A stretch of DNA of 64,000 nucleotides. Origin: Gilliamella sp. WF3-4. Its GTDB lineage: Bacteria > Pseudomonadota > Gammaproteobacteria > Enterobacterales > Orbaceae. The stretch covers positions 62,001 through 126,000 of the forward strand of contig NZ_LZGW01000007.1 of NCBI RefSeq assembly GCF_001690275.1, written 5' to 3'. Shown piece after piece: positions 4,561 through 51,400 of this stretch (position 1 is the stretch's first letter; each line of letters starts with the position of its first letter). Below the pieces are notes generated by a model that searched no databases, was not told where the DNA came from, and worked only from the letters and a program-made list of their open reading frames with translations. The position numbers were made by a program, and so were the translations under genes.

Positions 4561-4694
4561 AGTATCTTTAATTAAATTTAATGAGGTTAAATATAGTTCA
4601 ATTGTATCATGATTACTTAGAATAAAAAAAATAAAAAATTTTTCGTTATTTAAATGGCATTATCTTTGCAAATTTATTAGAATAAGCCTCCTAT

Positions 4695-4766
4695 GACCTC
4701 ATAGTTAAATGGATATAACGAGCCCCTCCTAAGGGCTAGTTGCAGGTTCGATTCCTGCTGGGGTCA
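4695..4766 (+). tRNA. tRNA-Arg(CCU)
   Basis: The cloverleaf reads GACCTCA/TGGGGTC (acceptor), an anticodon stem GCCC/GGGC with loop CTCCTAA (anticodon CCT), and a T loop GGTTCGATTCC. The sequence is close to E. coli argW. The discriminator A is followed by AAA, so CCA is not encoded, unlike the tRNA-Gly and tRNA-Leu genes in this window. argW is a well-known integration site for prophages and islands. Confidence 0.95.
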
Positions 4767-4895
4767 AAACCCGCCAAACAGACACAGCTTTACATTGATA
4801 TCCGCAATAAACTTTGATGCTCACTATAAATCAATTAAGTCAATTTTGTTGTACAGTAAAATTTACGCCTTATCAAATCATCTAAAGCTTTATAA

Positions 4896-4965
4896 CCCTT
4901 TTTTTGAGCTGTAAAATAAAACAAATAAAAACATTGTGTTAGTGATTTTCTGCAAAAAAGGGTTT
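4896..4965. repeat. Long-range inverted repeat in the presumed CRISPR leader
   Basis: AACCCTTTTTT (from 4894) and AAAAAAGGGTT (about 4953-4964) face each other across some 45 nt, between tRNA-Arg and the CRISPR repeats. The function is unknown. It could be a terminator for the tRNA transcript or part of an AT-rich leader. Confidence 0.4.
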
Positions 4966-5025
4966 TTGGAGACAAAAATCCTATTTGCCTTTTGGCAAAC
5001 AAAGTTTATAGTATGTTTGTTTCTA

Positions 5026-5173
5026 GTTTAACGCCGTGTAGGCGGTTTAGAAATGAACGAGTTTATAAAAATAAATATTCGTATGGTTTAACGCCGTGTA
5101 GGCAGTTTAGAAAATTGCGGTGGCTCGCACCTCCCAAAATTTATAGCTTAACGCCGTATAGGTGTTTATTTTA
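5026..5173 (+). CRISPR. Orphan type I-F CRISPR mini-array (3 repeats, 2 spacers)
   Basis: Three 28-bp repeats lie at 5026-5053, 5086-5113 and 5146-5173, separated by two spacers of exactly 32 bp (5054-5085, 5114-5145). The repeats start GTTTAACGCCGTGTAGGC and end GTTTAGAAA. This is the type I-F pattern (E. coli I-F repeats have a GCCGTATAGGC core and end TTAGAAA). Repeats 1 and 2 differ at one base. Repeat 3 is degenerate from its second base on (GCTTAACGCCGTATAGGT), as expected for the distal repeat, which places the leader on the left and crRNA on the plus strand. No cas gene is in the window. Any interference would need Cas proteins encoded elsewhere, otherwise the array is a relic. Confidence 0.85.
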
Positions 5174-39490: not shown

Positions 39491-39662
39491 TACATTAATC
39501 CAATGAATTAATGCGCGATTAATATGTAGGAAAACACGAGATTGTTCCAATTTATAGCTAAAATGATCTTATAAGAAGTGCCCGACGTAAATCAAACAGT
39601 AAATATTATTAAACCAAAATTAGAGCTTTTTGAATTAGAAAAACAACTTGAATATGTGTTAC
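39491..39662. other. Short gap after the hlyD-like gene
   Basis: A 22-codon open piece ending VNIIKPKLELFELEKQLEYVLL (39597-39668) may be the tail of a lost gene, cut by the IS3 element. No other structure is seen. Confidence 0.3.
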
Positions 39663-39736
39663 TGTAACTATCCCCTAAAATAGTACAGCAAAAAAGTAGA
39701 AAATTCTCTATGATAAAAGTAAAAGAGGATTTAATT

Positions 39737-39994
39737 ATGAAAAAAATGACTGAACATCAAATCGTCGCTATTTTAAAAGAAGCTGAAGCAGGTATTCCTG
39801 TCAAGGAACTCTGTCGTAAATATGGCATGGGTAATTCAACTTTCTATAAATGGCGGGGAAAATATGGCGGTATGGAAACGTCGGATATCAAACGCTTAAA
39901 GGAGCTTGAGGCTGAAAATCGTAAGCTTAAACAGATGTTTGCTGAGCTAAGTTTAAAATCCCAGCTTCAGAAAGAAATCATAAAAAAGCTTTAG
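39737..39994 (+). CDS. IS3-family transposase OrfA
   Basis: The 85-residue protein (start ATG 39737 after AGAGGAT) has the helix-turn-helix HQIVAILKEAEAGIPVKELCRKYGMGNSTFYKWRGKYGG in pieces and a leucine-zipper segment (LKELEAENRKLKQMFAELSL). It is intact, but OrfB is not, so the element cannot move by itself. The end carries an A AAA AAG slip heptamer (39982-39988) that would fuse OrfA to OrfB by -1 shifting, as usual in IS3 elements. Confidence 0.88.
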   Translation: MKKMTEHQIVAILKEAEAGIPVKELCRKYGMGNSTFYKWRGKYGGMETSDIKRLKELEAENRKLKQMFAELSLKSQLQKEIIKKL

Positions 39995-50899: not shown

Positions 50900-51400
50900 T
50901 TATAACTATCTTATAAAACAGTACAGTAAAAAGGTAGAAAATTCTCGATGATAAAAGTAAAAGGGGATGTAAGTATGAAAAAATGACTGAACATCAAATT
51001 TTATCTATTTTAAAAGAAACCAAGGCAAGCGTTCTTGTTAAAGAACTGTGCCGTAAATATAGCATGGGGTAATTTATCTTTTTGTATATGGTGAGAAAAA
51101 TGTGGCGGAATGGAAACTTTAGACATCAGGTTAACCTTAAACAGATGTTTACCGAACTTAGCTTAAAATCATAACGTCAGTTGGAAATTATGAAAAAACT
51201 TTAAAGGCCACAAAGTCACGTAAAATTTGATTAAAACAACTTCAGAAAAATTATTTTATTGCTATTGCTACGAACGGTGTAATTGTTGGCTTAAGCCATT
51301 GTGCTTACTATGATCAACCTAAGTTGCAGGATCATTCTATGATTATTTCGGTACTAAGCGCCATTAATTACTAACAGGTATTTATACTGAGACTTTACTA
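50900..51400 (+). mobile_element. IS3-family remnant, copy 2, heavily decayed
   Basis: The sequence parallels copy 1 from its left end (ATAACTATCTTATAAAACAG) through orfA (ATGAAAAAA-TGACTGAACATC, one A lost) to the orfB part CAIVGLSRCAYY, with many shifts and stops. It fades after about 51370. Copy 2 still has CAG where copy 1 has a TAG. Confidence 0.75.

Follow-up and report, generated by a model that had tools for sequence, protein, structure and literature searches.

Organization of the array locus

The window, a 64-kb stretch of contig C7 from a 2.85-Mb Gilliamella genome (G000), carries a small CRISPR array near a tRNA-Arg(CCT) gene at 4694–4767, in agreement with the original prediction. 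Its mlaA-like protein, so named from the translation, reaches 95% identity to Gilliamella proteins. Three repeats follow one another with a period of 60/60, separated by two spacers and preceded by a leader module, as listed here.

4894–5025, + strand: leader module, 132 nt, with its 5′ edge at AACCCTTTTTTT (85-bit match to leader model R1, which includes the window leader among its 30 training leaders; alignment A2; edge test)
4894–4906, + strand: leader inverted repeat, left arm AACCCTTTTTTTG (read from the sequence; ACCCTTTTTT in 29/30 leaders)
4953–4964, + strand: leader inverted repeat, right arm CAAAAAAGGGTT (read from the sequence; both arms found by pattern in 29/30 leaders)
4985–5012, + strand: promoter-like site in the leader, TTGCCT-16-TATAGT (five such sites in the region against 5.3 in shuffles, not above chance alone)
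5026–5053, + strand: repeat 1, 28 nt (read from the sequence and the repeat spacing)
5054–5085, + strand: spacer 1, matching a phage integrase gene (L116:13369–13400) at 31 of 32 positions, with a 5′ CC (viral sequence comparison)
5086–5113, + strand: repeat 2, 28 nt, with a weakened stem (sequence and predicted fold)
5114–5145, + strand: spacer 2, negative in target searches (genome, phage and viral searches)
5146–5173, + strand: repeat 3, degenerate and terminal, a hairpin followed by a T-rich tail (repeat comparison; terminator-like at 5150–5166)

The coordinates originally predicted for the three 28-bp repeats, the degenerate third among them, and for the two 32-bp spacers are exact, and both the type I-F assignment and the orientation of the array stand, the 28-nt repeat with a GCC..GGC hairpin (3 bp of stem in repeat 2) and spacers of exactly 32 nt being those of a type I-F array. 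The 18-nt head of the repeat occurs three times in the window, against a mean of 0.01 in 100 shuffles, none of which reached three, and the Rfam CRISPR-DR4 family matches repeat 1 at 24.9 bits, under its gathering score of 35.

Repeat 2 is identical to repeat 1 at 27 of 28 positions and repeat 3 at 68%; a degenerate last repeat is usual in CRISPR arrays. The earlier expectation that repeats 1 and 2 both keep a CGCC/GGCG stem holds for repeat 1 but not for repeat 2, where the stem reads CGCC/GGCA and pairing is limited to GCC/GGC. Both repeats carry A rather than C at position 6, which we take to be the usual partner of G20 (numbering after the P. aeruginosa repeat), so that a pair at the stem base is missing. 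Predicted fold energies are −7.4 for repeat 1 (an alternative fold) and −5.0 for repeat 2, compared with −9.7 to −11.2 for repeats in the genome's other arrays. The weak stem of repeat 2 points to lowered processing. The A at position 6 is common to all three window repeats, as would be expected if the leader-proximal repeat templates new repeats. It is also present in every one of the 25 repeats that make up three arrays of 8–9 repeats each in relatives, and the variant thus appears to be tolerated.

A complete type I-F operon on another contig

In whole-genome searches csy4 has a single hit, on contig C30, and cas1 has hits on C30 and C45; neither gene was found on the contig that carries the window. 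The C30 operon runs in the order cas1, cas2-3, csy1, csy2, csy3, csy4, with all frames open and type I-F as the best-scoring subtype, and forms a complete set (cas1f, cas2-3f, cas8f, cas5f, cas7f and cas6f). A one-spacer I-F array adjoins csy4. Since the cognate genes (cas1f, cas2-3 and csy1–4) and a further array are present in the same genome rather than absent from it, the window array is not the orphan it had been called, and the suggestion that it is a remnant of a lost system fails because the operon is complete; of the options offered at the time, service by a distant I-F system proves correct.

Pattern searches, which arrays with very different repeats would escape, found further satellite arrays at C7:14130, C7:53864 and C1:157252, making the window array one of four leader-bearing satellites found in this genome, in addition to the array beside csy4. 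A candidate at C17:179619 was dropped, being a lone palindrome with neither a second repeat nor a leader hit. Separately, a second cas set on contig C45 (L019 7377–13274) comprises six genes assigned by score to type I-E.

The leader belongs to a genus-wide family

The 132 nt 5′ of repeat 1 match loci in other Gilliamella genomes. Of 42 leaders listed, 30 were aligned (alignment A2) and used to build the sequence model R1. They carry ACCCTTTTTT at the start (29/30), TATAGT (27/30) and TCTA just before the repeat (30/30). An exact IHF consensus motif is found in 20 of the 30; among the satellite leaders of the window's genome, it is missing from the window leader and from two of the other three.

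Comparison of 41 modules between genomes gives 90% identity over the first 13 nt of the leader and 67–71% over its last 30–60 nt, and a mean of 25–38% in the region 5′ of the leader start, where 28% is the chance level. Pairs within a genome share more upstream sequence (mean 49–69%, many of them tandem copies in G025), so the 5′ edge is sharp between genomes but not always within one; for pairs within G000 and within G013, the upstream identity is only 29–38%.

Of the 35 genus genomes, 26 have R1 hits, as do 4 of 9 other genomes of the family, with the highest numbers in G025 (20, on one contig), G014 and G017 (13), G021 (12) and G015 (11), these counts having been made under stricter filters and possibly including weak or antisense hits. 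The genome of the window has six hits; the four listed are the four satellites, the window array among them, which share a leader, while the leader beside csy4 differs from theirs, its likeness being confined to the inverted repeat, and gives an antisense partial hit. Among genomes at least 90% complete, at least three leader hits were found in 18 of 20 with csy4 and in 1 of 10 without it (P = 3.5e-5, with the cut-off of three picked after the counts were seen); the corresponding figures for all genomes are 19/21 and 3/14. Exceptions to this pairing are G009 (two hits) and G010 (none), both with csy4, and G020, with eight hits and no csy4. The window array is one of a set of satellites scattered through its genome, and most of the csy4-bearing Gilliamella genomes searched have such a set.

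Two observations on individual genomes may be recorded here. G020 is rated 100% complete, and its arrays are perhaps true orphans left after cas loss. In G025 (L118, L120 and L121), three or four leader-array units follow one another in tandem at distances of about 0.8–1.5 kb; by eye their leaders are near-identical, and most of the units have a repeat of another type, with a GCTGCATAAGC core.

Spacer targets and alternative roles for the array

Spacer 1 is identical at 31 of 32 positions to an IMG/VR stretch that is flanked by CC on its 5′ side and lies inside a 343-aa phage integrase gene, so that one of the two spacers has a mobile-element target with a CC PAM. This target came from the IMG/VR scan; BLAST of spacer 1 against a named phage collection returned chance-level matches (75 records, best listed E = 3), and the 44 Orbaceae genomes hold no second site within three mismatches. 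Spacer 2 has no target within three mismatches in the same 44 genomes, itself excepted. Its best phage BLAST result was a 17-nt match at E = 3, and two 16-mer hits in viral sequence were discarded after extension, at no more than 21/32 and 19/32. Among phage, viral and Orbaceae sequences, the search for CC-flanked targets of both spacers, proposed with the original prediction, succeeded for spacer 1 and failed for spacer 2.

Viral matches were obtained for other arrays of the genome as well. C1 spacer 1 matches a tail-sheath gene on a viral contig at 31/32 beside CC (a second contig, L138, at 25/32 and lacking CC, was not counted), and the two spacers of C7:14130 match at 32/32 beside CT, spacer 1 on two viral contigs and spacer 2 on one of the viral contigs compared. 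Of the four kinds of protospacer identified for the genome, two are thus flanked by CT and two by CC. No viral match was obtained for the C7:53864 spacer in an 18-mer search of the viral collection, and none of at least 25/32 for C1 spacer 2 or the C30 spacer in seven fetched viral stretches.

The viral contig with the integrase target shares 259 bp at 92% identity with window positions 39660–39918, which suggests that the phage has a related host, although the segment looks like a piece of an insertion element. It (92%) and another segment at 50903–51128 (81%) resemble DNA beside the targeted prophage and are probably parts of an insertion element. Integration of the targeted prophage at the tRNA-Arg of the window was considered and rejected, because the integrase precedes a sequence that, in our own reading, appears to be a tRNA-Ser 3′ end; ARAGORN detected no whole tRNA after the targeted integrase.

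Spacer 1 also has a partial match inside the window. When every sixth position is left free in scoring the run, these bases being flipped out in type I-F, a CC-flanked run of 15 nt appears at 1087–1118 (− strand) with mismatches at positions 6 and 12 alone, a length reached by 0 of 1000 shuffled spacers, and the same seed pattern hits once in the 35 genus genomes, at this site. The site lies within a ketoacyl-synthase-like gene (176–1387, − strand), and the array could accordingly be read as a regulatory mini-array in which a seed match of spacer 1 would direct the Csy complex to this gene, in the manner of CreR, a crRNA-like RNA that represses its own cas operon according to an excerpt of PMC12737573. 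However, 15 of the 32 positions match, the longest run falls to an ordinary 6 if the sixth positions are not freed, the run lengths were scored for two spacers within the 64-kb window, and spacer 2 gives nothing above shuffles. CreR/CreA systems would be expected to show a conserved partial match with a PAM at the promoter they control, but the only seed match here is intragenic and the spacers at the same site in Gilliamella mensalis are unrelated, while spacer 1 has a near-perfect phage source. We consider this reading very improbable and the seed match a curiosity. The option, raised originally, of a small array of guides for a dedicated target, read here as a host gene, is not favoured in view of the CC-flanked 31/32 phage match and the unrelated G. 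mensalis spacers, with the one seed-length match keeping it barely open.

Alternatively, the small size of the array and the nearby tRNA gene might point to a mini-array on a prophage or other mobile element, acting in superinfection exclusion or as an RNA anti-CRISPR. Against it stand flanking genes that look housekeeping-like on both sides (mlaA-like, feoA/feoB, transaldolase and transketolase, as named from their translations), a leader of a genus-wide family, and a spacer that is itself aimed at a phage, and we consider it very unlikely.

History of the site and of the satellite set

G. mensalis (L040) carries an array at the equivalent site, flanked by tRNA-Arg and feoA. Its spacers are unrelated to those of the window, and its last repeat is degenerate in a similar way; arrays at the same site may possibly have arisen independently. 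In G. bombicola (L039), both the array and the leader hit are absent from the window-equivalent site; G017, which does not differ from G. bombicola at any of the 501 columns compared, may represent that genome again. Comparison of the flanks did not resolve an insertion boundary or a target-site duplication at the window locus. A repeat-like 10-nt core close to the far side of mlaA (L039, L040, L043 and L060) was dropped from consideration, being identical in all four and lacking a repeat array.

A second site, C7:53864 (L014 3864 / L166 5864), shows how far an array may differ between genomes with the same flanks: there is one spacer in G000, ten repeats in G019 and a single repeat in G005. 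Among the matches listed, the flanks also enclose a leader in G006, G016 and G023, giving six genomes. In nine others (G001, G003, G008, G012, G013, G015, G024, G026 and G029) they lie ∼58–528 kb apart, again among the matches listed, which marks the site as a gene-order breakpoint; in the remaining genomes the flanks are on different contigs or only a single flank is among the matches listed.

The window leader is 90% identical to the second-site (C7:53864) leader of its own genome but 76% identical to the leader at its corresponding position in G019, a pattern suggestive of sequence exchange between satellites. Such exchange is possible but not general, because the C7:14130 leader is nearer to that same G019 leader (88%) than to the other leaders of its own genome (78–83%); the two second-site leaders are 87% identical to each other. 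It may be proposed, speculatively and with more doubt than confidence, that the Orbaceae I-F leader together with the first repeat is a dispersing unit that seeds adaptation-competent arrays throughout a genome, up to about 20 at most, which then grow and shrink independently and exchange sequence, some of them at points of changed gene order between species. Immune memory would thus be distributed over many small satellites that depend on one operon.

The range of sizes seen at C7:53864, from ten repeats in G019 to one spacer in G000 and one repeat in G005, also bears on the state of the window array. It could be a decaying relic, a former satellite whose processing and extension have ceased and which is carried passively despite the presence of cas genes, as its weak repeat 2 stem, imperfect IHF motif, two spacers and degenerate last repeat might indicate. 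However, the same A6 repeats fill the arrays of 8–9 repeats in relatives (25/25), the score of the window leader is on a level with those of leaders of long arrays, spacer 1 retains a 31/32 phage match, and the state of the last repeat is what CRISPR arrays usually show. Decay is a serious contender, though we would bet against it; it shares its origin with the reading that we prefer and differs from it on present function alone, and the odds of the two overlap.

Proposed mechanism and relation to known systems

The reading that we prefer, at a probability of roughly 85%, is that of a cas-distant satellite type I-F array, served in trans by the operon of the same genome, directed against phage and contracted to two spacers. 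The anatomy of the array, the operon, the leader family, the CC-flanked phage target of one spacer and the differing spacers at the same site in a sister species are observed; from them we infer transcription, processing, interference in trans and contraction. Transcription would start in the leader, at the promoter-like site, the leader also bearing features of an adaptation site. Cas6f (Csy4), encoded on C30, would cut the array transcript into crRNAs expected to be ∼60 nt in length with an 8-nt TTTAGAAA-type handle, and these would be loaded into the Csy complex from the C30 operon, which would recognise CC-adjacent phage DNA and recruit Cas2-3. Spacers were presumably taken up at the locus in the past, before contraction to the present two. 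Counting against this account are the 3-bp stem of repeat 2, the absence of an exact IHF motif, the failure to find a target for spacer 2 and the CT beside two of four protospacer kinds, and with its weakened stem the array may or may not still be active.

The window array resembles type I-F (Csy/YPEST) arrays in its 28-nt repeat with a GCCGTGTAGGC core, its 32-nt spacers, its leader, its degenerate last repeat and the CC at protospacer 1, and differs from them in being distant from cas genes, in having two spacers and the A6 variant, and in being one of many leader-bearing copies per genome. As in isolated cas-distant arrays generally, the cas genes are not adjacent; however, the operon in the same genome, the shared leader family and the phage target make it a satellite rather than an orphan. 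Viral mini-CRISPR arrays, to judge from an extract of PMC8616872, likewise have one or two spacers and use host cas genes in trans, whereas the window array sits amid housekeeping-like genes, has a full leader and occupies a position where a sister species also has an array.

As a mechanism, a cas-distant I-F array of this kind is ordinary; less so is the existence, across the genus, of a set of satellites that each bear a leader. The open-licence PMC literature searched yielded no account of such a set, and nothing on Gilliamella together with type I-F. Small cas-distant arrays are readily dismissed as orphans, and under the CRISPRCasFinder level rules a level-4 filter would probably drop one- or two-spacer arrays like that of the window. 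A bee-phage study, as described in an extract of PMC12586679, restricted its array set to CRISPRCasFinder evidence level 4. Should memory be distributed among many satellites, spacer counts and phage-host maps of this bee symbiont would be incomplete. The genus also provides a natural test bed for leader dispersal and array shrinkage.

A guide-like element beside csy1

Outside the window, between cas2-3 and csy1 on C30 (L018 9525–9612), lies an element made up of a single repeat, a pseudo-spacer and a hairpin bearing a T run. The seed of the pseudo-spacer matches a site that lies upstream of csy1 and is flanked by CC. Between this element and csy1, a 106-aa open frame (L018 9801–10121) has no match in Pfam, PHROGs or PADLOC. 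We examined 20 cas loci of the 21 csy4-bearing genomes, leaving out G010, where the contig ends too soon. The element is present in 18 of the 19 loci that have both cas2-3 and csy1, G009 being the one without it. In 16 of the 18, a pseudo-spacer seed of 8–19 nt (sixth positions free) matches a CC-adjacent site on the same strand as csy1, in the interval from the element to that gene, and exceeds shuffles (0/300 in 13 of the 16, 1–2/300 in the other three). The remaining two match over 15 and 16 nt beside CT, with nothing above shuffles beside CC.

This partial match with a PAM upstream of cas genes, as in CreR/CreA, is the pattern that CreR-type autorepression would produce, as far as that system is set out in the excerpt of PMC12737573. 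The element beside csy1 is built like CreR, whereas the window array, with its near full-length phage match and its spacer turnover between species, is not (PMC12737573, same excerpt). Across the loci there are 15 distinct pseudo-spacers, and the guide and the site upstream of csy1 change together: pseudo-spacers swapped in from other genomes gave best runs of 2–7 on the 16 loci, and once 13 against 19 for the locus's own. The element provides a clear and testable case of a guide changing in step with its likely target.
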